Shown in pieces: positions 1-8,789 of a DNA stretch of 8,789 nucleotides. The DNA is taken from contig CALBKR010000319.1 of assembly GCA_937896105.1 (NCBI GenBank), forward strand, positions 1 through 8,789. The letters are read 5' to 3'. Made by a program: the position numbers and the translations under genes. The DNA is from an uncultured Bacteroidales bacterium. Lineage in GTDB: Bacteria > Bacteroidota > Bacteroidia > Bacteroidales > Bacteroidaceae. Within the stretch, counting starts at the first letter, position 1. Each line of letters begins with the position of its first letter. A model generated the notes under the pieces. That model ran no database searches and had not been told where the DNA came from. It saw only the letters and a program-made list of their open reading frames with translations.

Positions 1-76
1 GCCAGGGCTGTGCTCACAAGGTGAGGCCATGCCAGGCCCCAGGGGACTCCCCCCAAACTCCGGCAGTGCAGCCTTT
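1..76. other. GC-rich, CpG-poor terminal segment, probably foreign (vertebrate-like) DNA
   Basis: The first 70 bases are about 69% G+C (48 of 70), while the next 70 are about 40%. They contain one CpG where base composition predicts about eight, and they are rich in CAGG, CCTGG and TGAG words. CpG depletion at high GC is typical of vertebrate DNA and unlike the rest of this window. The reading frame of the lipoprotein gene runs into this segment and ends there in a tail of glycine, tryptophan and cysteine that does not fit the protein. I infer a chimeric contig end, for example host DNA ligated or misassembled onto the phage sequence. The exact junction is uncertain, somewhere around 68-80. 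A short GC-rich bacterial insertion is the alternative. Confidence 0.55.
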
Positions 77-376
77 GCCACTATCGTACTTCTTTTCCAC
101 AACAATCTCTTTTTCAACAAACAGTGTATCACGGCAGATAACCGTGTCAACCCTCAGCCGTTCCTTATAAATGGTACGGTATTTGGTAAAGAAGACTGTA
201 TCGGCCTTTTCGCGTATGAACACACTATCACGAACGATGACACTGTCAGCTACGACAACACGTTCGGTGTAATTGTTTGCCGACATCATAGCACGGTTCT
301 CCATCTTCTTCACTCCGGCACACCCCACCATTGTCAACAACAGCAGGCTAACAACTATTTTTATTCCGTTTTTCAT
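14..376 (-). CDS. Spanin-like phage lipoprotein, C-terminus not native
   Basis: The product is a 120-residue predicted lipoprotein. It starts with a basic, hydrophobic signal (MKNGIKIVVSLLLLTMVGC) ending in a lipobox-like MVGC, so cysteine 19 would be lipidated. Residues 35-95 are a periplasmic stretch of alternating charged and beta-branched residues (ERVVVADSVIVRDSVF and similar), a pattern I remember in small proteins next to holins and endolysins in Bacteroidetes phages. Those relatives, as I recall, end in a transmembrane helix, which would make them one-piece spanins that disrupt the outer membrane. Here the sequence changes after about residue 100 into a non-native tail encoded by the GC-rich window end, so the true C-terminus is missing. 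The start at 376 has AAGGA about 10-14 bases upstream and overlaps the holin-like gene by 29 bases. Lysis function is inferred from context. Confidence 0.6.
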   Translation of the reverse strand: MKNGIKIVVSLLLLTMVGCAGVKKMENRAMMSANNYTERVVVADSVIVRDSVFIREKADTVFFTKYRTIYKERLRVDTVICRDTLFVEKEIVVEKKYDSGKGCTAGVWGESPGAWHGLTL

Positions 377-815
377 AATTGATATAATCCTTCAGGTACC
401 CACTGCGTTCAAGTACCTTCAGGCTAAAGATATAATACAGAAAATTCAGTACACTGTACAATGTACTCTGTTCATTCGTTATCAATCGCGCATTGCGCAA
501 TATGTTAGTGCCATAGAAATATATTGCTACATATATCATAAACGACACACAGTGCACAGCCGCCCTCTCCTCGCCTTTGAAATAACCCAGCAGATAGATG
601 CAGGCAACCATCGCAAAATAGATACCGGCGTCACGGAAGAAGCAGAAAGCCTTCCTGAAGCTCCATTCACGATGGTTGCATACATCGGCCAGCAGGCCAA
701 CCACAAAATTGGCAGTGAAGAGAAGGACAAGCCCGAAAATATCGTTCCTTATCGGAAACATCAGCCCCACCACGTTGGCAACGAGCGAAGCTGCCACAAT
801 CCTCAAGCCATCCAT
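348..815 (-). CDS. Holin-like multi-pass membrane protein
   Basis: The 155-residue product has about four hydrophobic segments: residues 4-20 (RIVAASLVANVVGLMF), 24-42, 63-80 and 88-106, followed by a polar, basic C-terminal third rich in tyrosine. The size and topology fit phage holins that permeabilise the inner membrane at lysis, and the next gene is a spanin-like lipoprotein. The reading frame is open further upstream to 1112, but that part lies inside the connector-like gene and is low-quality sequence, so I chose the ATG at 815, 10 bases after the upstream stop codon. No clear Shine-Dalgarno site is visible, which is normal in Bacteroidetes. No motif proves holin activity. A membrane protein of another role is possible. 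Confidence 0.6.
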   Translation of the reverse strand: MDGLRIVAASLVANVVGLMFPIRNDIFGLVLLFTANFVVGLLADVCNHREWSFRKAFCFFRDAGIYFAMVACIYLLGYFKGEERAAVHCVSFMIYVAIYFYGTNILRNARLITNEQSTLYSVLNFLYYIFSLKVLERSGYLKDYINYEKRNKNSC

Positions 816-825
816 AGACGCAAAG

Positions 826-1470
826 TTATTTTTTACCCATTTGCCCGCCGCAGGCAACCAAAGCCTGCGCGAGCAGCGAATTTGCAATGTCGAAACGCTC
901 GAACACCGTGTAGAGCAACGATGCACACTCGAACACCACAGCATCGGCCATAGCATCATCATACCCGTCAAGACCATCGGCAGCATTGAATCGTGCCTCG
1001 TAGACAAAGCAAGCAGGCTTGTCGACACCATGATGGAAAGGGAACAGGAGAGCACACCTGTTACCGTTAGCAGCAACACTCTCCACGCACACAGGCTTGC
1101 AATATCCGGCACGCGTGTGCTCGTTCATCTGCCACATTGCCTCGCGTGAGTCGCTGGGATAAAGCTGTGTTACAGGGCGCATCCACCCGTCGAGCTGAAG
1201 AGTGACAAGTTTCACAAAGTCGTCGGGCAGGACAATACGCCCGCCGCCCGACACATCTGCAACGACATTCAACGTAGCCGGTACTATGCTTTTGGTATTC
1301 ACGCGCCCTGCTCCCTTGTTCATTTGTACAAAGAGTACAGCCTGCGGCAACAACCCGGTTATAGTGTCGTCAAGCGAACGAGTATCGGCCGACAACAACG
1401 ACACATCACTGTCATCGGCAGCCTCATTAACAACCAGCCTTACCCTTTTGACAAGTTCATTGCAGTTCAT
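826..1470 (-). CDS. Putative head-tail connector (adaptor) protein
   Basis: The 214-residue soluble protein begins MNCNELVKRVRLVVNEAADD. An N-terminal helix of the type NELVKRVR..VNEA is followed by a DDTITGLLPQAV helix, a beta section with GGRIVLPDDFVKLVTLQL (about residues 78-95), GWMRPVTQLYPSDS, and a helical C-terminal region. The LPDDF-x-LV motif followed by a tryptophan and a proline-valine recalls gp4-like adaptors of podoviruses and ring proteins of crAss-like phages, which attach below the portal. I place it there with moderate trust, because the resemblance is from memory and no alignment was possible. The ATG at 1470 shares its A with the upstream TGA (TGATG), which implies translational coupling. 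A TTG nine bases earlier is a weaker alternative start. Confidence 0.5.
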   Translation of the reverse strand: MNCNELVKRVRLVVNEAADDSDVSLLSADTRSLDDTITGLLPQAVLFVQMNKGAGRVNTKSIVPATLNVVADVSGGGRIVLPDDFVKLVTLQLDGWMRPVTQLYPSDSREAMWQMNEHTRAGYCKPVCVESVAANGNRCALLFPFHHGVDKPACFVYEARFNAADGLDGYDDAMADAVVFECASLLYTVFERFDIANSLLAQALVACGGQMGKK

Positions 1471-1889
1471 CACAACCAATTGGGAAATGAAACATCATTA
1501 ACCTTCGCCACACTCCTGATTGCCAGCTTGTTCTGCAACTGAGCCAAAGGGCAATTATATGGAGCAGCCATCAGGAATGCACGCGCCTGCTGCATATTTG
1601 TCACCTCGGGAACAACCACACCGCTGCCGACCGGTTCGGCTGCATCGGCAGCCTTCTTCTCTTCAAGAACCTCGACCCTACCGCGTTTTATCTCACCGCA
1701 ACGGAACGCATCGCTGCTCTCAATAGCTCGCTGGAACAGAGGGTTATCGGTCGTATACTGCGCAGGGTAGACACCTGTAGAGTTTATGGCGCCGCCTGTA
1801 AAGTCAATCCGCACCAGAGCCTTTCCTATTCTGAAATAGCTGTTACGTTCTATCTGCCCGTGTATCTCGTATGTAATTCTTTTTCTCAT
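1470..1889 (-). CDS. Small phage virion-region protein of unknown function
   Basis: The product is 139 residues. The N-terminal half (RKRITYEIHGQIERNSYFRIGKAL and following) looks beta-rich. A charged linker with EEKKAADAAEP lies near residues 76-86. The C-terminal 44 residues form a helical module, from VTNMQQARAFLMAAPYNCPL to VSFPNWL. Proteins with this NxxQARxxL...VSFPN ending are familiar to me directly downstream of major capsid genes in Bacteroidetes phages, but I know no assigned function. Head completion or a decoration role is plausible from position. GAAAGG lies directly before the ATG at 1889. The gene sits just past the hairpin terminator that follows the capsid gene, so it is probably expressed at a lower level, and it is coupled to the next gene through TGATG. 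Confidence 0.55.
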   Translation of the reverse strand: MRKRITYEIHGQIERNSYFRIGKALVRIDFTGGAINSTGVYPAQYTTDNPLFQRAIESSDAFRCGEIKRGRVEVLEEKKAADAAEPVGSGVVVPEVTNMQQARAFLMAAPYNCPLAQLQNKLAIRSVAKVNDVSFPNWL

Positions 1890-1979: not shown

Positions 1980-3599
1980 TTAGAGAATAATCTCGCCTGT
2001 ATATTCAACCCAGGTGGTACCGTTGAATGTCACCACCGAACCTGCAGTAAACCAGAGTTTTTCGGCACCGTTAACAGTATGGTTGACATCGGCTGTCAAT
2101 ATCACAACATCGTTAATGTTAGGATCGGCAGGCAACGTATCGGCACTTGTCACACGCGAAGCACCCGGGATATCACTCTCGGCAGCCGAGCCGTTCACCC
2201 AGATGTGCGAGTAGCCCTTGAGGCAGAGACAGTCGATAGTCATCACCACCTCACGCTTTGCCTCCTCTCCGTCGACATTCTCGGTCTTGGCATCCTCGTT
2301 CTTCATATAGTAGCGCACAAGCCCGTTCTCGTCGATAAGGCCACCGCAGTGAGCATATCCAAGGGCATCGAGTGTGGGGTCGTGGACAAGGTCGATGTCG
2401 CCGAATACAGTGTGTATCTTGGTACATTCGATACCGAACACCTTATCGCCTGTCACGCTGATATTCTTGTGAAGCGTGAGGTCGATTTTCTGGATATCGT
2501 TAAGCAACTGCTTGCCCAACAGCCAGATAGCTCTCTTGGTGCAATTGAACCCCGTGAACTTGACCATCGAAAGGTTGATGAGATCGGCGAAGGTAATCTT
2601 TGACGACAGGTCGTACTGGCGTTTGAACTGCCAACGGATACCCTTCGAGAAGTAATCCCACTGGTAGCCCATCGCATTATCCATAGCCTGTACCTTGAAC
2701 TTACCGGGCTGACCCACCCACGCTGTACGGCAGCTCTCGAGACGGAACTGGCGGAGCACAGCTTCAGCAATCTGCGACTCGCTGAACTCGATGCGTTTCT
2801 TCTGCGCAGCAAAATAGTCGCTCACGATGCTGTTGCAGAGCTGCTTCTGAAGATACATACGCTCGGGAACCGGAACAATTGTCGATGGTGCGATGAATTT
2901 CTGTGTCTCGTATGCTGCCGACGAGAGAAGGATAATCTCGGTACCGGCTGGTATTGTAGGCACCACGCAGTAGTCGTCGCTCGCATTGACCTTGGGACCA
3001 TTGACGGCCATAGCGATGGGCGCCTCGGTAGTGCTGTTTTTGCCCACGAAGAAGAGCATAAGGTCGACACCAGGCATCTCAATCTGCCCGGTAGGGTCAT
3101 AGCCGTTCACCCCTTTACAGATGGCTGTGTAATATTCCTGGAAAATCTTTCTCTCTCCGGTTGTCGAGAATGGAATCTCTGCACGTGTAGCCTTGATACC
3201 GGTGTATGTCTCGTTTGTATATGCCTTCGAGCGCTTGTCATCGATAAGATAGTGGTCGACCTCGAATGAACTGACACGCACCTGACGCAGTATCTTACGT
3301 TTAATGGTGTCAATGACACTCTCGTCACTCGCGATACTCACAATCTTGGTATCCACATCGGCATCGATGAGGTCGACACCCAGCTCGCTTGCGTTCGACA
3401 CAGTAGTAGCCTCGCCAGCACCCTGACTGTTGAGCCCTGCGATACCTTTTGAAGACTTTGGCGTACCTGCCGGAACAACCGACACAGTGGCCAACATCAT
3501 CCCGGCCTCAGCGTTGTCGAACGCATAGAGCATCACCGAAGCCAAGGCTACAATCACATAGAGAGGATTCTCTCTCAAGAAATTAAAAACTTTCTTCAT
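1980..3599 (-). CDS. Major capsid protein
   Basis: The product is 539 residues. Its size, its place right after a scaffold-like gene, and its sequence texture (long alpha/beta region with KRKILRQVRVSSFEVDHYL, FQEYYTAICKGVNGYDP, WDYFSKGIRWQFKRQYDLSS) fit a Bacteroidetes-phage HK97-fold capsid protein. Two oddities stand out. Residues 10-30 (ENPLYVIVALASVMLYAFDN and on) form a hydrophobic, signal-peptide-like segment. The last about 70 residues (469-539) form a separate beta-rich module with LWFTAGSVVTFNGTTWVEYTG, possibly surface exposed. The ATG at 3599 has no Shine-Dalgarno site but an AT-rich leader. An internal start at M33 or M34 would remove the hydrophobic segment. The gene lies 38 bases after the scaffold stop and probably shares its promoter at 4463-4510. 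Assignment as capsid protein is confident by context. The exact family was not tested. Confidence 0.8.
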   Translation of the reverse strand: MKKVFNFLRENPLYVIVALASVMLYAFDNAEAGMMLATVSVVPAGTPKSSKGIAGLNSQGAGEATTVSNASELGVDLIDADVDTKIVSIASDESVIDTIKRKILRQVRVSSFEVDHYLIDDKRSKAYTNETYTGIKATRAEIPFSTTGERKIFQEYYTAICKGVNGYDPTGQIEMPGVDLMLFFVGKNSTTEAPIAMAVNGPKVNASDDYCVVPTIPAGTEIILLSSAAYETQKFIAPSTIVPVPERMYLQKQLCNSIVSDYFAAQKKRIEFSESQIAEAVLRQFRLESCRTAWVGQPGKFKVQAMDNAMGYQWDYFSKGIRWQFKRQYDLSSKITFADLINLSMVKFTGFNCTKRAIWLLGKQLLNDIQKIDLTLHKNISVTGDKVFGIECTKIHTVFGDIDLVHDPTLDALGYAHCGGLIDENGLVRYYMKNEDAKTENVDGEEAKREVVMTIDCLCLKGYSHIWVNGSAAESDIPGASRVTSADTLPADPNINDVVILTADVNHTVNGAEKLWFTAGSVVTFNGTTWVEYTGEIIL

Positions 3600-3637: not shown

Positions 3638-4444
3638 TCAAGCTTTGAGAGCTTTGTCAATAAGCGAATTGCGTGGGCGCTTGCGCTCAACATCGGGAGC
3701 GACGCTGTTCATTCCCTTGGGCAAACCGTCACCGAAATCCTCCTTCATACGCCTTATGTTGGCATTGCGTCCCTTGATGTCGCCGGCAGCGAATGCATCC
3801 TCGACATCCTGTTCGTATGTGATGGCGTGGTCGAGCGCAGTACAAACATCCTCGGTATATTTGCCGGCCATAATGGGGAATATCAGTTTCTCCCACACGT
3901 TATCCATAAAATCGGAAGGGTCATACCCCTTTGCACTGCAGAACGACTCGATAACCGGCATACTCGCCTCGAGATTTGCCTCATACTCCCGGCGGTCATT
4001 TGCCAGACGCATCACCTCGTTCTTCCTCTCCTCATCGGCAAGCATCATCTCCTCGAACTCGGGACTATCCTCGTCGATATTCACAAATCCACGACCAAAG
4101 TAACGCGCCACAGCACTATGTGCGTTACGTTTGCCGTCAACCACATCCACCAACATCTGAGCCAGACGCGGGTCACGCTCGAGCATACCGGCAAGACGTT
4201 CGTTCTGTTCACGGTTCAGCTCAATGTGCCTCAGCAACAAATCCTGTGACAGTTTGTCATTCACATCGAAATCCTCACCGAAAAGAGATTTTAATCTTGT
4301 GTTAAACTCAGCCATCGTATCCTGTTCACCGAATACAGCATCGGCGTTGGCAGCAGCACCGGGATTCAAAGCACCGTTCTCTGCCTGGGGCTCAGCAACC
4401 TGCCGGGCACCTTCTCTGTTCTTTAAAACCTGTTCCATAGACAT
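3638..4444 (-). CDS. Capsid scaffolding-like protein
   Basis: This 268-residue, highly charged, mostly helical protein lies directly upstream of the major capsid gene, the usual place of the scaffold. It has a low-complexity N-terminus (residues 10-40, rich in Ala, Glu, Gln and Asn), a helical core with many acidic residues (LSQDLLLRHIELNREQNERL and beyond) and a basic tail ending RKRPRNSLIDKALKA. Scaffolds often end in such a basic, capsid-binding helix. The protein would assemble with capsid subunits and leave, or be cleaved, before packaging. There are two start candidates, 4444 and 4438. Neither has a Shine-Dalgarno site. I chose 4444, 18 bases after the predicted -7 element. It is the first gene of the leftward operon. 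Confidence 0.65.
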   Translation of the reverse strand: MSMEQVLKNREGARQVAEPQAENGALNPGAAANADAVFGEQDTMAEFNTRLKSLFGEDFDVNDKLSQDLLLRHIELNREQNERLAGMLERDPRLAQMLVDVVDGKRNAHSAVARYFGRGFVNIDEDSPEFEEMMLADEERKNEVMRLANDRREYEANLEASMPVIESFCSAKGYDPSDFMDNVWEKLIFPIMAGKYTEDVCTALDHAITYEQDVEDAFAAGDIKGRNANIRRMKEDFGDGLPKGMNSVAPDVERKRPRNSLIDKALKA

Positions 4445-4462
4445 TAATATTTATTTCACAGG

Positions 4463-4510
4463 CAAAGTAACAACTGAAACTGCACGGCAAGGTTGCTGAA
4501 ATGACACTAT
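4463..4510 (-). promoter_or_regulatory. Predicted phage promoter for scaffold-capsid operon
   Basis: On the minus strand the -7 element is TTACTTTG (4470-4463), one base from the Bacteroidetes consensus TAnnTTTG. CAACCTTGC (4495-4487) supplies a -33-type TTG. An upstream box, ATAGTGTCATTTCAGCA (4510-4494), shares 12 of 17 bases with the box at 5126-5142. The -7 element lies 18 bases before the ATG at 4444. CAACCTTGC-N18-ACTTTG is shared exactly with the promoter at 5126-5173, which is the main support. Confidence 0.6.
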
Positions 4511-4516
4511 CAGCGA

Positions 4517-4536
4517 AGCAAAAGCCATTTTTTGCT
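4517..4536. repeat. 7-bp inverted repeat, possible operator
   Basis: AGCAAAA (4517-4523) and TTTTGCT (4530-4536) are perfect reverse complements with a 6-base spacer. The repeat ends 6 bases upstream of the box of the leftward promoter. It could be a dimeric repressor or activator site. It is AT-rich and short, so chance remains possible. Confidence 0.35.
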
Positions 4537-4648
4537 ATCGGGCAACAACACACCTTTTTAATATAGAAATGGCCGATGCCGGAAGAGACACATATCACAA
4601 AACAGTCCAAACCACAGCCTGAGCACGAACTGAAGCCTGTTGATAAAT

Positions 4649-4696
4649 AAAGTGGCGAAACAGCATATAATTCAGCTTTTTTTGACTATATTTTTG
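4649..4696 (+). promoter_or_regulatory. Predicted phage promoter for the 135-aa gene
   Basis: The box AAAGTGGCGAAACAGCA (4649-4665) matches 16 of 17 bases of the box at 5126-5142. The -7 element TATTTTTG (4689-4696) fits TAnnTTTG and ends exactly 31 bases after the box, as in the other two copies. It lies 16 bases before the ATG at 4713. A -33 TTG at the expected spacing is not present here, so this copy may depend on an activator bound at the box. Confidence 0.6.
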
Positions 4697-4712
4697 TATT
4701 CAAAAAAGCAGA

Positions 4713-5120
4713 ATGAGAAGTAGCAAGAATGACACAGTTCGCGAAACACGCAAACAGGATGTAGTCGAAAGTTTTTTTGAATCATTGAAAGAGGTGCGCA
4801 AGACCAAGCCCTACGCAACACAGGAAGAGGTCATCAGGCACGCAGTCAAAAAAGAGGCTCCGCGCTTCTATGTAACCTTTGAGAACGCCCGCCGTTTCGT
4901 CTCGTTGCTGGCACGGAACAAAAAGTTGCCACTCATCAACAGCAACAAACTCGCAATGTACAAGGAGATATACAGGCGATATCTGCAGAGAGTAAAGGAT
5001 TGCAGCAAGCGCTACAAGTACATAATCCTTGAACAGATTATCGAAGAGCCCGCACCATCGTTCTACCTCGACGAGGAGACATTCCGAAGCATTGTCTACC
5101 GCGCCTTGCGTGGAGAGTAA
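4713..5120 (+). CDS. 135-aa phage protein with an internal duplication, unknown function
   Basis: The product is basic and mostly helical. Two segments repeat each other: residues 40-68, with EAPRFYVTFENARRFVSLLAR, and residues 105-133, with PAPSFYLDEETFRSIVYRALR. Both fit xAPxFYxxxExxRxxVxxxLxR. I remember proteins with APSFY-type repeats in Bacteroidetes phages and mobile elements, without an assigned role. Being basic and the first gene of the packaging operon, it could bind DNA or act as a small terminase, but I see no definite helix-turn-helix. The ATG at 4713 has no Shine-Dalgarno site. It is set by the promoter position and by the match in leader length to the other two promoters. A 74-base gap with its own promoter separates it from the next gene. 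Confidence 0.65.
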   Translation: MRSSKNDTVRETRKQDVVESFFESLKEVRKTKPYATQEEVIRHAVKKEAPRFYVTFENARRFVSLLARNKKLPLINSNKLAMYKEIYRRYLQRVKDCSKRYKYIILEQIIEEPAPSFYLDEETFRSIVYRALRGE

Positions 5121-5125
5121 GAGGC

Positions 5126-5173
5126 AAAGTGGCAAAACAGCAACCTTGCAAAGCGGATACAGCAATAACTTTG
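5126..5173 (+). promoter_or_regulatory. Predicted phage promoter for the 163-aa, 161-aa and terminase genes
   Basis: The box AAAGTGGCAAAACAGCA (5126-5142) overlaps CAACCTTGC (5141-5149), which supplies a TTG at about -33. The -7 element TAACTTTG (5166-5173) is a full match to TAnnTTTG. It sits 21 bases before the ATG at 5195. This is the best copy of the module that is also found at 4463-4510 and 4649-4696. Confidence 0.65.
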
Positions 5174-5194: not shown

Positions 5195-5686
5195 ATGAGT
5201 GCAATGACCTTTACTATAACCAAAAAGGATATATACGAAAGAATCTTCGCTACAAGCGCCTATGCCTCGCGCTCACGCGAAGCGATGGGGATTCCATCCG
5301 ATATCATAGAGAGGATGCAAGCGACAGACGATGAGAAAAAGATTATCGAGCCGCTGATAGATAGCAGCGTCGACGATGCATACACACACATCGCACGCTA
5401 CTTTCCGGGCAGCACATCTCAATTCACAGGCGATACGCAGAATGGCAAATACACATTTTACATCCCCACCCCGACGGAATACCCATCGGGAAACAGTGAC
5501 AGACTGAAACGATGCATAACAAGTTTCATTGTCAATCGCACCCTGCAGGCCTGGTACACCGATGTAAAGCCCGACGAGGCAAGCATTGCAGCCACAAAGG
5601 CACAAAGCGACGCCGCAAACATCGTACAGCTGCTGACACAGCGAACCAGGCCTATAAAGATTTACGATGATATCATACAGCTATGA
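5195..5686 (+). CDS. Small phage structural-type protein, related to its downstream neighbour
   Basis: The 163-residue product begins MSAMTFTITKKDIYERI. It has an N-terminal helical part, a central helix around residues 45-70 (DDEKKIIEPLIDSSVDDAYT then HIARYFPG), a beta hairpin (GKYTFYIPTP) and a helix with LKRCITSFIVNRTLQAWY (104-121). This layout is repeated in the next gene, so the pair seems to come from a duplication. Similar short proteins are frequent in Bacteroidetes prophages near virion genes, and I guess a head-completion or neck role. The residues show no catalytic motif. The start at 5195 is supported by the promoter 21 bases upstream. Codon 4 is another ATG. It overlaps the next gene by ATGA. 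Confidence 0.55.
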   Translation: MSAMTFTITKKDIYERIFATSAYASRSREAMGIPSDIIERMQATDDEKKIIEPLIDSSVDDAYTHIARYFPGSTSQFTGDTQNGKYTFYIPTPTEYPSGNSDRLKRCITSFIVNRTLQAWYTDVKPDEASIAATKAQSDAANIVQLLTQRTRPIKIYDDIIQL

Positions 5687-6168
5687 CAACTATGGAAAAC
5701 AACATAATAATAAAAAGAAACGAGCTGCGACAGCAGATTAATTTACGGAACTTTTATATGGGAGAGTCGGCAAAACGCAAGGACATCGACGCCGACACCA
5801 TACAAAGCAGCAAAGAAGACGATGAACTGCTCCTTATGTTCACGCACACAGCGTGTAACGGGCTTGTTACTGCTGTCGCGCTCCGTTTCCCTTCTATAAG
5901 CTACAAGATAAGCGACAAGGAGATTACTTTCAGTTTCGAGACCGTAGATGAGAGCCGCAGCCACCTGCTGCCAATGCTCAAGCAGGCCATTCTCGACTAT
6001 ATCACAAACGATGTGATAATGCAATGGTTGCTGTTGCGTCAGCCGAATATGGCACAACCGAGCATCTCACTGCGCAACAGCCTCTACAGCAACGTGCAGT
6101 TCCAGTTCGCGAAACAATACAACACAAGAAGAACACGTAGGCGGGCAACAGACCTCGCCGGTATATGA
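5683..6168 (+). CDS. Small phage structural-type protein, paralogue of the upstream gene
   Basis: The 161-residue product matches the upstream one in layout: EDDELLLMFTHTACNGLVTA then VALRFPS (45-71), KEITFSFETV (79-88) and LKQAILDYITNDVIMQW (99-115). It differs in having an arginine-rich C-terminus (RRTRRRATDLAGI), which could touch DNA or the capsid. It overlaps the gene before and the terminase after by four bases each (ATGA), so all three are probably translationally coupled and made together. A second ATG at codon 4 is a possible start. Function is unknown. A neck, stopper or small-terminase-like role is a guess from position. Confidence 0.55.
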   Translation: MTTMENNIIIKRNELRQQINLRNFYMGESAKRKDIDADTIQSSKEDDELLLMFTHTACNGLVTAVALRFPSISYKISDKEITFSFETVDESRSHLLPMLKQAILDYITNDVIMQWLLLRQPNMAQPSISLRNSLYSNVQFQFAKQYNTRRTRRRATDLAGI

Positions 6169-8171
6169 ATATGAAGAAGGAAGAGATTATTGAAGAGAAC
6201 AAAAGACGGCTGAAAGAGATTTCAGCCGTTTATAATCCCATCACGGGCGAAGGCTCCACATCCGTTCCGCGGCAAGAGGTCACTATTAAAGGATTCCCAA
6301 TCGAAAAGCTCTATCTTCCCGCCACAATGGCTGGCGATGAATTCGTTAATCAGTTGCAGCGGTATGGAGCCGAAGGCTATCTTCGCGACATACAGGGCAA
6401 AGAGCCCGACAGCCGCAACGTCATAAAGTTATGGTTACGCTTTTGCCTGCTGCGCATAGAACACGATTTCGAATATTGGGCACGTACAATGACAACAATA
6501 TCCGACAAGGGCAAAGGACGCGACACCGCATTCACGCTCAACCGTCCGCAACGCATATACCTGAAGGCAATGGAAGAACTGCGTCTTCAGGACAAACCGA
6601 TAGATATCATCCTGTGCAAGGCACGCCAATGGGGAGGCAGTACCCTAACACAGCTATATATGCTATGGATACAGCTTGTACACAAGCGAAACTGGAACAG
6701 TGTCATCTGCGGCGACATCGAGAAACAGTCCTCCATAGTCGCCGGTATGCTCGCAAAGGTCATAAGCCGCTACCCACAATGGGCAACCGGCGGAAAACGG
6801 CTCACTACCACCCCATATCAGGGAGCGCAAAAGACACGTGTCATCAGCTGGAGCAACAGCCGCTACTCGCTTGGCTCGGCACAGAAGCCCGACTCGTTGC
6901 GAAGCGAAGATATCAGTATGGCTCACCTCACAGAGGTGGGACTATGGAAAGCCACACAGGGACGCAAACCCGAAGACCTGGTACAATCAATCTTCGGTTC
7001 GATAGCATCGGGACCATATACAATGAAGGTCATCGAATCCACAGCCAAAGGAGTTGGCAACTTCTTCCACCGCACCTGGATCGAGGCACAGGAACATCGA
7101 AATAACTTTACACCGGTATTCATTCCCTGGTTTGCCATTGACCTCTACAGCAAGCCACTTGACGAAAAGGAGTATCCAAAGTTTATCGACAGCCTCGATG
7201 AATACGAGCAACATCTTTTTGAGCTTGGCGCCACCCTTGAGGCCATATCCTGGTACCGCGACAAACGGCGCGAAATACCCGACGAATGGCGTCTCTTCTC
7301 CGAGTTCCCCTCGACAGCCACCGAGGCATTCCAAAGCAGCGGACGCCGCGTGTTCCGCATACCATACGTCAACCGTGCACGCCTCGACTGCCTGCCACCC
7401 ACATTTATCGGAGATATAAAGGAGAGTACAAAGGAGGGAAAGCCGACAACGCTGTTCGAGCCAATTATACCGGGTGAAAAAAGCGATGAGGAGAGACTAT
7501 GGGTGTGGCTTATGCCTGAAAATGAGAAGACACTGCGCGACCGTTATATTGTAGCGGTCGATGTAGGAGGGACTAGCGAGAAGGCCGACTATTCCTGCAT
7601 CCTTGTTGCCGACCGCATAGCAATGTGCGAGGGCGGTGTTCCGGAGATTGCCGCCTGCTGGCACGGTCACATCGAACACGACAAGCTTGCCTGGAAAGCC
7701 GTTGCAATAGCGCGTGCCTACAACAACGCACTACTCGTGATAGAGTCGAACACCCTTGAGACCGAAGGTACCGAAGGCAACAACTTCGAGTACATACTCA
7801 CAGAGATAGCCGGCAAATACAGCAACCTCTACTGCCGTACCTCACAGATAGAGATAAAGCAAGGACGCCCGCGCCGTTGGGGATTCCACACCAATAGTTC
7901 CACAAAGCCTATGGTCATAAACTTCCTTGTAAAGGCGCTTCGCGACAGCCTTTACATAGAAAGATGTTTACAGACAACATACGAACTCGACCTTTACGAA
8001 TTCAAGGAGAACGGCCGGGAGACAGGAGCCATAGAAGGCAACCACGACGACCGTGTAATGGCAACAGCTATACTCATTTGGGTATGCTACAATCACCCGC
8101 TGACAAAGCAACCACCGGCCATAGCTTGCAACAAATCCCGAAGACGCATAATAAGCGAAGCAAGCATATAA
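6165..8171 (+). CDS. terL: Terminase large subunit (DNA-packaging ATPase and nuclease)
   Basis: The 668-residue protein carries both terminase domains. In the ATPase part, KARQWGGST (152-160) is the variant Walker A loop with an early lysine, usual in this family. ISMAHLTE (250-257) is Walker B with catalytic Glu257. ESTAKG (291-296) is the coupling motif. In the RNase H-like nuclease part, VAVDVGG has Asp466, LLVIESNT has Glu527, and NHDDR has Asp628 and Asp629, giving the expected acidic triad. It would pump DNA into the procapsid through the portal and cut the concatemer. The product is full length with no frameshift, which argues against simple decay. The ATG at 6165 overlaps the upstream stop by ATGA. 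The gene ends 11 bases before a repeat array and faces a convergent rRNA operon, with no terminator of its own except that of the rRNA. Confidence 0.95.
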   Translation: MNMKKEEIIEENKRRLKEISAVYNPITGEGSTSVPRQEVTIKGFPIEKLYLPATMAGDEFVNQLQRYGAEGYLRDIQGKEPDSRNVIKLWLRFCLLRIEHDFEYWARTMTTISDKGKGRDTAFTLNRPQRIYLKAMEELRLQDKPIDIILCKARQWGGSTLTQLYMLWIQLVHKRNWNSVICGDIEKQSSIVAGMLAKVISRYPQWATGGKRLTTTPYQGAQKTRVISWSNSRYSLGSAQKPDSLRSEDISMAHLTEVGLWKATQGRKPEDLVQSIFGSIASGPYTMKVIESTAKGVGNFFHRTWIEAQEHRNNFTPVFIPWFAIDLYSKPLDEKEYPKFIDSLDEYEQHLFELGATLEAISWYRDKRREIPDEWRLFSEFPSTATEAFQSSGRRVFRIPYVNRARLDCLPPTFIGDIKESTKEGKPTTLFEPIIPGEKSDEERLWVWLMPENEKTLRDRYIVAVDVGGTSEKADYSCILVADRIAMCEGGVPEIAACWHGHIEHDKLAWKAVAIARAYNNALLVIESNTLETEGTEGNNFEYILTEIAGKYSNLYCRTSQIEIKQGRPRRWGFHTNSSTKPMVINFLVKALRDSLYIERCLQTTYELDLYEFKENGRETGAIEGNHDDRVMATAILIWVCYNHPLTKQPPAIACNKSRRRIISEASI

Positions 8172-8182
8172 CAACCCCAAAA

Positions 8183-8281
8183 CCCTTAGTGCCCTTAGAG
8201 CCCTTAGTGCCTTTAGTGCCCTTAGAGCCTTTAGAGCCCTTAGTGCCTTTAGTGCCCTTAGTGCCTTTAGTGCCCTTAGAG
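8183..8281. repeat. Tandem array of eleven 9-bp units, consensus CCYTTAGWG
   Basis: Eleven contiguous units run without any gap: CCCTTAGTG, CCCTTAGAG, CCTTTAGTG and CCTTTAGAG in mixed order, with variation only at positions 3 and 8 of the unit. A broken twelfth unit (CCCTT) follows at 8282. It lies between the terminase stop and the rRNA terminator. It is a multiple of three, so it reads as Pro-Leu-Val/Glu on one strand and Leu-Arg/Lys-Ala on the other, but I do not regard it as coding. Such minisatellites arise by slippage. Confidence 0.9.
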
Positions 8282-8288
8282 CCCTTTT

Positions 8289-8328
8289 AAAAAAAAAGAC
8301 GAGCCTTAGCAATAGCTAAAGCTCGTCT
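8289..8328 (-). terminator. Rho-independent terminator of the rRNA operon
   Basis: On the minus strand AGACGAGC (8328-8321) pairs with GCTCGTCT (8304-8297). After one mismatch, TTAGC and GCTAA extend the stem by five pairs around a 4-base loop (8311-8314). Eight T residues follow (8296-8289). It lies just past the 5S gene. On the plus strand the tail is TCTGTAAAAG, a poor U tract, so it would stop terminase transcription only weakly. Confidence 0.85.
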
Positions 8329-8337
8329 TCTGTAAAA

Positions 8338-8449
8338 GTGGCGATGACCTACTCTCCCACGAATCTTCGCAGTACCATCGGCGCTGTTGGGCTTAACTTC
8401 TCTGTTCGGGATGGGAAGAGGTGGATCCCCAACGCTATCAATCGCCTTA
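8338..8449 (-). rRNA. rrf: 5S ribosomal RNA
   Basis: Read on the minus strand, the segment has the conserved 5S core GGGGATCCACCTCTTCCCAT, then CGAACAGAGAAGTTAAGCCC, the GCGCCGATGGTACTGC stretch and GGGAGAGTAGGTCATCGCC. The ends GGCGAT (8446-8441) and ATCGCC (8345-8340) pair as helix I. The length of about 110 nt and the sequence are of the Bacteroidales type. Ends are accurate to a few bases. Its transcript runs toward the prophage and ends at the hairpin right after it. Confidence 0.95.
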
Positions 8450-8640
8450 ATAAGGGACAGATTCTTGGATATCGTACACGAAAAAGAGTATATTCCTTAC
8501 TTCTTTACTATCAAGATAGCTATGCAAACAATTTCTTCCTGCCGTCCTACTGGAGAACGGCTCCGCTTGCTTTGCAAATACTGAAGGTATGGCCCAAAGC
8601 ATTGACTCGCGGCACTCGTTTAATTTGAGTGCGGAGCTAA
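8450..8640 (-). other. 23S-5S rRNA spacer
   Basis: This stretch of about 190 bases between the two rRNA genes has no credible gene and no tRNA that I can see. It contains a perfect 6-bp stem, GCACTC (8612-8617) with GAGTGC (8627-8632), near the 23S end, probably part of a processing stem in the precursor. Open frames across it are accidental. Confidence 0.8.
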
Positions 8641-8789
8641 AAAAGCTATCGGGCAATTAGTACTGCTCGACTGAACACATTGCTGTGCTTGCATCTGCAG
8701 CCTATCGACGTCGTGGTCTACGACGACCCTCAAGGGAAATCTAATCTTGTGGTGGGCTTCGCACTTAGATGCTTTCAGCGCTTATCCCG
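8641..8789 (-). rRNA. rrl: 23S ribosomal RNA, 3' end only
   Basis: On the minus strand the segment reads the conserved 3' part of 23S rRNA: GCTGAAAGCATCTAAGTGCG, then AAGCCCACC, GATTAGATTTCCC, GGTCGTCG, GACGTCGATAGGCTGCAG and CAGTACTAATTGCCCGA. Only about the last 145-150 nt are inside, and the gene runs off the right edge. The mature 3' end near 8641 is approximate. The rRNA order (23S then 5S) is standard. Confidence 0.95.

Follow-up and report, generated by a model that had tools for sequence, protein, structure and literature searches.

A promoter module of near-fixed spacing and a dispersed, gene-transfer-agent-like phage gene set in a genus of gut Bacteroidaceae

What is the purpose of a promoter element that stands three times in one short phage-like region, on both strands and at the same distance from the core promoter, and what kind of gene set does it serve? 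The question is raised by a stretch of 8,789 nucleotides (nt) from an uncultured Bacteroidales bacterium of the Bacteroidaceae (contig CALBKR010000319.1 of assembly GCA_937896105.1), referred to here as the window, which holds two divergent phage-type units adjoining host rRNA genes at its right end. The rightward unit comprises a terS-like gene, g163, g161 and the gene of the large terminase (TerL), and the leftward unit a scaffold-like gene (scaf), the major capsid protein gene (mcp) and small head/lysis-like genes. An earlier note on this DNA had placed the element in a complete prophage and proposed that it switches on capsid and packaging genes together. The promoter module is real and strongly constrained, and through it a dispersed gene set resembling a gene transfer agent (GTA) appears to come into view in a genus of Bacteroidota. 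This genus, consisting of gut Bacteroidaceae known mostly from ruminant metagenome-assembled genomes, seems to have kept the genes of a phage-like particle as its own, and the module probably switches these scattered genes on together, along with toxin-like genes. The window presumably belongs to the same genus, its TerL being 87% identical to that of genome G001.

Each copy of the module pairs a 17-nt box, putatively of activator type, with a -7 element. The promoter of the terS-like gene has the box AAAGTGGCGAAACAGCA (4649-4665, plus strand) and the -7 element TATTTTTG (4689..4696), that of g163 has AAAGTGGCAAAACAGCA (5126-5142, plus strand) and TAACTTTG (5166..5173), and that of the scaffold-like gene has ATAGTGTCATTTCAGCA (4510-4494, minus strand) and TTACTTTG (4463..4470). 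The boxes agree pairwise in 16, 12 and 11 of 17 bases, and in all three modules the last G of the -7 element lies exactly 31 nt past the box; the positions, identities and spacing given by the earlier note were confirmed, as was the lack of a -33 TTG in the first copy. The CCTTG in the other two copies ends just 17 nt 5' of the -7 octamer, and cannot with confidence be called a canonical -33 element. According to PMC7366714, the housekeeping sigma factor of Bacteroidota uses a -7 element TAnnTTTG; B. fragilis reportedly also has a TTTG near -33, an element not found in Flavobacterium johnsoniae. The note had left open whether an activator or an alternative sigma factor was involved, and a sigma factor, too, would read two elements at near-fixed spacing. 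However, the -7 element is of the usual TAnnTTTG type and fits the housekeeping consensus (PMC7366714), which makes the alternative sigma factor less likely, and the usual -7 together with a weak or absent -33 favours the activator.

To describe conservation, the window was set beside 54 loci encoding a TerL relative, a sample that includes a few near-duplicates (such as L003/L010 and L007/L051) and in which loci with a detectable g161 are termed genus-type. In the window and these loci 40 copies of the core [CTG][AG][AG]CAACCT have a TTTG at N23, against at most 4 for each other spacing from 0 to 37, which puts equal spacing beyond chance, as had been claimed. A matrix of the 52-nt module (threshold at least 20 bits, loci with less than 150 nt upstream dropped) matched before scaf, terS and g163 in 30 of 30, 34 of 34 and 25 of 37 genus-type loci, or in 36 of 42, 42 of 47 and 25 of 37 loci when outgroups are included, with no match before the control genes g161 (0/37), terL (0/54) and mcp (0/45) or in mononucleotide shuffles (0/1080). 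The matrix was trained on the same loci, and its counts describe conservation rather than provide an independent test, the reversed-pattern controls on whole genomes given below being cleaner. The matches before scaf and terS support the idea of a regulatory module common to capsid and packaging genes. The claim that its spacing is exactly equal holds in the window and has to be relaxed among relatives. When the box was located alone and the distance to TTTG left open, genus-type scaf promoters had 31 nt in 29 of 30 cases (in L027 the search caught a neighbouring box) and g163 promoters in 23 of 25 (the other two had no TTTG there), while the 33 genus-type terS promoters divided into 19 with 31 nt, 12 with 30 nt and 2 without TTTG, and outgroup terS promoters had 30 nt in 7 of 10. 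The spacing across relatives is fixed to within one base (30 or 31 nt in 83 of 88 boxed genus-type promoters) and is not invariably 31, and a rule of exactly 31 nt everywhere was dropped after this recount, 30 nt being common at terS. Relatives that keep the genes and lack the boxes, which the note had named as grounds for abandoning its proposal, were found for the g163 copy only (12 of 37 loci); since the DNA upstream of g163 in these loci looks like the coding end of terS, g163 there probably rides on the terS transcript.

A site in near-fixed phase beside the core promoter, 30 or 31 nt away, in combination with a weak -33 is what an activator-dependent promoter would present. The box might instead be the operator of a repressor such as the CI-like S24 protein described below, silencing the whole set until derepression switches it on. 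It does overlap the -33 region, a frequent operator position, and its spacing is imperfectly fixed at 30 or 31 nt; yet an operator for a repressor does not depend on the tight phasing to the -7 element that these promoters display, and the -33 of the box promoters is poor. In outgroups at about 60% TerL identity (L003, L005 and L048) inspection by eye shows a near-perfect dyad, AAAAGTTGCnGTTTT-AGT-AAAACnnCAACTTTT, with the box as its right arm; in L002 and L045 the dyad is less perfect. Measured from the last G of the -7 element, the dyad centre is 40-41 nt upstream, at about -45, and class II activators sit near -45. A box that forms half of a dyad in relatives, as for a dimeric activator, also argues against an alternative sigma factor (of the extracytoplasmic function type) reading an extended upstream box plus TTTG; with 17 nt the box moreover exceeds the length of a sigma region-4 site, and we regard this as the least probable of the explanations considered.

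The module is not confined to the neighbourhood of the window genes. The spacing-free pattern CARCAACCT-N8..38-TTTGC has matches on many contigs of 16 genomes, among the matches listed, and of the 11 listed for G011 five have exactly N23, with no other spacing repeated. A strict pattern gave 40 matches in 5 genomes (reversed control 0), and the exact strict core 79 matches across the 44 genomes of the genus, 27 of which have at least one (reversed control 1). From site to ATG the distance is 11-29 nt in the 30 loci read, with one exception of 192 nt and two loci without an open reading frame (ORF) behind the site. Twenty regions around the 79 exact matches were inspected, and the 22 dispersed sites examined precede genes of a 93-aa family (6), toxin-like genes (5), a gene of a second phage module described below (3), fibre-like genes (2) and a muramidase gene (1), and the genes behind dispersed sites appear to be largely phage, lysis or toxin-like. 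Of the remaining exact matches, which include G002:C54, G003:C7, C34 and C56, and G014:C30, some are probably due to chance. The expectation that the module would recur only before late-type genes holds loosely, as it also precedes g129, on the regulator side, as well as toxin-immunity-like pairs and small genes.

The proteins behind the sites are of several kinds. Those with DUF5675 or DUF6973 domains share short N-termini and diverge beyond them, and, where the contig is long enough, their genes are followed by that of a lipoprotein or exported protein (judged by eye). Proteins of 349-398 aa are alike over about 175 N-terminal residues (86% identity between L098 and L099, 38-51% with L103 and L175) and differ, by eye, in their C-termini. 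Polymorphic toxin-like genes with shared N-termini, swapped C-termini and exported neighbours were noted at L097, L098, L099, L100, L103, L175, L178 and L182. The muramidase belongs to GH108, the two fibre-like proteins have 733 and 1130 aa, one of them with a GDSL lipase domain, and a small-gene pair (about 93 + 81 aa) stands behind a box in six genomes (L165, L166, L168, L172, L071 and L101).

The phage genes are themselves divided. In G001 the order is head/packaging module, CI-like gene, host ATP synthase operon, second phage module, host ligA and dapA (host gene names assigned by eye), the second module encoding proteins of 77, 172, 93 and 1555 aa and the portal. The stretches read comprised 40 kb each of the G001 and G011 contigs and almost the whole of those of G002 and G006, and the ATP synthase genes separate the two modules in three of these four genomes (G001, G002 and G006; not G011). 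The portal matches Pfam P22_portal (3.7e-34) and phrog_156; in the 1555-aa protein an LPD23 domain was recognised. The arrangement differs in eight contiguous phage relatives (L001-L005, L010, L045 and L048), whose portal gene directly follows TerL. A tyrosine-recombinase-like gene (by eye) was seen beside the second module in G002 (L089:15625-16827).

TerL of the genus type (71-87% identical) was found in 42 of 44 genus genomes, in two pieces in G019; the exceptions are G027, which lacks TerL, and G042, whose sole copy is 43% identical. The genus-type portal was found in 41 of 44, including G027 and G042, which leaves no genus genome without one or the other (44 of 44); as a rough yardstick of genome incompleteness, the family model detects rpoB in 32 of the 44. 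In the family sample, TerL of at least 71% identity occurs in 21 genomes, all of the genus, and in none of 280 others; in 13 of these there is a TerL match, which does not exceed 46%. Peptide-pattern searches of viral contigs gave ten relatives for TerL, at most 62% identical, and six for the portal, at most 48%. Two genus genomes carry an added prophage-type copy (G034, contig C6, L050; G042, contig C128), with TerL at 60% and 43% and the portal within 10 kb.

Inheritance along with the host is suggested by tree comparison. Over 25 genomes, TerL and rpoB tree distances have a Mantel r of 0.586, the best of 2000 permutations reaching 0.284, and the trees share 8 of 22 splits, against at most 3 in 500 draws with shuffled labels. 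Values of dN/dS are 0.03-0.08 for terL (8 pairs) and 0.01-0.05 for mcp (6 pairs), and are to be taken as rough with dS above 1 in many of the compared pairs. The TerL frames are open over 669-671 aa, a stop inside the aligned stretch being flagged once each in G013 and G040. Apart from the tyrosine-recombinase-like gene in G002, no conserved replication, excision or integrase genes were noticed by eye in the stretches of the four genomes, where no systematic search was made.

The setting of a complete prophage, as the earlier note had it, did not hold up: the module is chromosome-wide, and the phage genes are genus-core, split and embedded among host genes. It could still be that these are ordinary late promoters of an active temperate prophage and that the genus merely carries related prophages, an idea for which the contiguous relatives in viral contigs and B. 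timonensis (L001-L006, L010, L045 and L048), several of them boxed, might speak. What would be expected then is a contiguous set of patchy distribution with close viral relatives, and what was found is the contrast between genus and family, viral-contig TerL relatives that all stay at or below 62% identity, split modules in recurring host neighbourhoods with ligA-dapA and a portal away from TerL, congruence of the TerL and rpoB trees, and stretches in which no conserved integrase or replication genes were noticed by eye. The explanation was rejected on distribution and layout, and we consider it very unlikely. Of the features by which GTAs are recognised, the set has intact phage-derived head, portal and terminase genes in the host (a capsid fold, a P22-type portal, TerL, purifying selection), genes spread over several host loci, and vertical inheritance in the clade (42/44 against 0/280), for which the tree congruence is partial. 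The phage gene set looks domesticated in the sense in which the word is used for GTAs.

A regulatory pair accompanies the set. The family sample contains 21 genus genomes, of which 20 encode the CI-like S24 protein (Pfam Peptidase_S24, phrog_4) at 49% identity or more, only distant S24 relatives being found elsewhere. The gene g129, present in 39 of 44 genus genomes, is divergent from the CI-like gene and adjacent to it in all 30 loci read. With a filter that demanded ATTTG near the expected place, a promoter box was found ahead of g129 in 21 of these 30 loci, 15 of them with a spacing of 31 nt and 6 with one of 30 nt. A peptide-pattern scan of viral contigs found no g129. A known DNA-binding fold was considered for the g129 product and set aside, its model (pLDDT 77) having no significant match in the PDB. 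The g129 product and the terS-like protein are the candidates for the activator of the box.

The same region bears on the repressor reading of the box, since the CI-like gene is co-distributed with the set and the intergenic region between it and g129 has a box in many loci. However, a better candidate for the CI operator exists in a second dyad, TAGCCA-N4-TGGCTA, which lies 3' of the g129 -7 element in many loci and has a related counterpart in the terS spacer of many relatives, even though its one-mismatch form is near background genome-wide. The window has a degenerate copy of the spacer dyad (4671..4688, plus strand; 14 of 18 positions by eye against TTTAGCCATTTTTGGCTA of relatives), a candidate CI operator or element like that of GafZ (discussed below). 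As a genome-wide operator TAGCCA-N4-TGGCTA was rejected: with one mismatch allowed it occurs at 5-11 places per genome, against 0-13 for the control (8 genomes). Exact copies number three in G010 and one in G007; each of the two genomes has one in its CI/g129 region, and G010 has another at terS. Taking these points together with those on spacing, we find it unlikely that the box itself is a repressor operator.

The reading we favour, with a probability of about 0.7, is that the box is an activator site governing a GTA-like regulon of a domesticated phage gene set, with the CI-like/g129 pair above it. The 52-nt module would be a class II-like, activator-dependent promoter. If the last G of TTTG is put near position -4, its activator site would span roughly -52 to -35, standing in for a poor -33 element, 30-31 nt from a housekeeping -7. 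It would act as the common switch of a set made up of the head, packaging and lysis module of the window, the portal and ejection module beside ligA-dapA, and scattered accessory genes (the muramidase, fibre-like genes, polymorphic toxin-immunity-like pairs and the 93 + 81 aa pair). The CI-like S24 repressor would hold the divergent g129 down; once it is inactivated, the activator, be it the g129 product or the terS-like protein, would fire the box promoters, probably including that of g129 itself, and particle and accessories would be made together.

Several observations weigh against this reading. At terS the spacing is 30 and not 31 nt in 12 of 33 genus promoters and in most outgroups, and descent from a single ancestral promoter can also conserve a spacing, though the genes behind the module are unrelated. 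No convincing box was found at 9 of the 30 g129 loci (none in 8, a spurious match in 1), the predicted fold of the g129 product matches no DNA-binding protein, and the terS-like family has no solved relative. Seventeen of the 44 genus genomes have no exact strict-core match, and 5 of the 22 dispersed sites have either no ORF (3) or a probably unrelated one (2) behind them. Outside the genus the strict core has 38 matches in 36 of 280 family genomes, with 11 in the reversed control, an excess of about threefold that is partly accounted for by a recurring coding-like stretch. The TerL and rpoB trees agree on 8 of 22 splits only, and the high dS makes the selection estimates rough.

A further suggestion, put forward tentatively and more doubtful than the regulon, is that the particle is also a weapon. 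The genus-wide phage head, together with toxin-immunity pairs, tail-fibre-like receptor modules and a muramidase in the regulon, may indicate that induced cells release particles carrying or accompanying toxins, so that immune kin would survive and DNA would be exchanged. One small protein of the second module (L093:1651-2073) matches the profile of the toxin N-termini weakly (hmmsearch E 0.003, in G006 only), possibly through a particle-loading signal; this likeness, a weak hint, would make the toxins cargo of the particle. A type VI secretion system was considered as the home of the toxin-like genes; its marker VipB (PF05943) was found in 0 of 5 genomes, in a search in which only E. coli was positive among 14 controls and the sensitivity for the Bacteroidota systems is unproven.

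As for the other features of the window, the terS-like gene (4713..5120, plus strand; 135 aa; phrog_27246, unknown) is named from its position. Its protein shows two similar motifs in the alignment, APRFYVTFENARRFISLM and APSFYLDEETFRGIVYKTL, a pair that by eye looks like paired helix-turn-helix units; comparison of the family with PDB profiles gave no solved relative, and the protein is possibly a small terminase or a DNA-binding regulator. Directly upstream of its box lies TGTTGATAA (4638..4646, plus strand), which by eye recurs in many relatives, which we take to resemble a DnaA box and which might couple the gene set to replication. Downstream, g163 (5195..5686, plus strand) evolves much faster than the neighbouring genes in most pairs; its dN/dS is 0.27 and 0.47 for the two closest ones and 0.03 for L025/L041. 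It is followed by g161 (5683..6168, plus strand), which has tblastn matches in genus-type loci only, and by the genus-core TerL gene (6165..8171, plus strand; phrog_2, 4e-20). Between TerL and the host 5S rRNA gene (8336..8449, minus strand), a low-complexity run of CCTTAGTGCC/CCTTAGAGCC-like units occupies 8180-8290, and the end of the host 23S rRNA gene (8636-8789, minus strand) closes the window. On the leftward side, all on the minus strand, the scaffold-like gene (3638..4444; phrog_22323, unknown; named from its position before the capsid gene) precedes mcp (1980..3599), to which predicted-structure matches assign an HK97-type fold (model of modest confidence, pLDDT 64; top matches phage capsids, VP1 at 7.5e-15 and crAss001 at 3.6e-10). 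Beyond mcp lie a head-tail adaptor-like gene (826..1479; Pfam SU10_adaptor, E 0.00095, below the Pfam cut-off), a holin-like membrane protein gene (by eye; 348..815, start codon approximate; phrog_15037, unknown) and a spanin-like small lipoprotein gene (by eye; 14..376). No DNA-level relative of the window was found among deposited phages, and simple scans for sigma-70 promoters and for terminators yielded nothing informative.

Few lineages are known to have GTAs. The present set is called GTA-like, since what defines a GTA is the packaging and transfer of mostly random host DNA. Among the papers listed on GTAs and Bacteroidales, judged by titles and abstract openings, there was no Bacteroidota GTA; those on GTAs and polymorphic toxins were not relevant by title, and the literature on polymorphic toxins, capsids and domesticated phages gave only work on proteases. 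In its accessible part, a 2026 gut survey (PMC12946183) assigns GTA-like packaging chiefly to Bacillota, places lateral transduction in Bacteroides and describes no Bacteroidota GTA. A promoter signature that links unlinked genes to a phage-derived set makes GTA-like systems findable from sequence alone and names their accessory genes, including toxin-immunity-like pairs, and it allows a test of what such particles do in the rumen and hindgut, be it gene exchange, killing or both.

The closest parallel in wiring is the GTA of Caulobacter crescentus (CcGTA; PMC11150451). There RogA is the repressor of gafYZ, and the targets of GafY are its own promoter, the main gene cluster and some 18 accessory promoters whose -35 elements are degenerate; for GafZ, one promoter has a palindrome placed between its core elements. 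A repressor over an activator operon would correspond to the CI-like gene and g129, boxed in many loci; scattered activator promoters to the scattered box promoters; and the promoter palindrome to the terS-spacer dyad. However, the CcGTA site lies far upstream and works with IHF, whereas the site here abuts the core promoter, and the phylum differs, as does the P22-type portal here. The likeness would be one of wiring, not of homology between g129 or the terS-like protein and GafY or GafZ. The Faecalibacterium GTA (FpGTA), as described in the accessible part of PMC12946183, is likewise podovirus-like, split into two operons and near-ubiquitous in a genus of gut bacteria; unlike the present set it belongs to Bacillota and its particles are experimentally supported, and that part describes neither a dispersed promoter-box regulon nor toxin-immunity pairs for it.

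The contiguous phages of Bacteroidota (L001-L006, L010, L045 and L048) share homologous TerL, capsid, scaffold-like and portal genes with the set, and several have the box or dyad. Their portal, however, stands beside TerL (in L006 about 4 kb on, past a tail gene), and their TerL, about 58-62% identical, is not genus-core. Phage-borne polymorphic toxins, such as MuF toxins, have common N-termini and swapped C-terminal domains beside immunity-like genes. In contrast to these, the toxin-like genes of the present genus are unlinked from the structural genes and are joined to them by a common promoter module.
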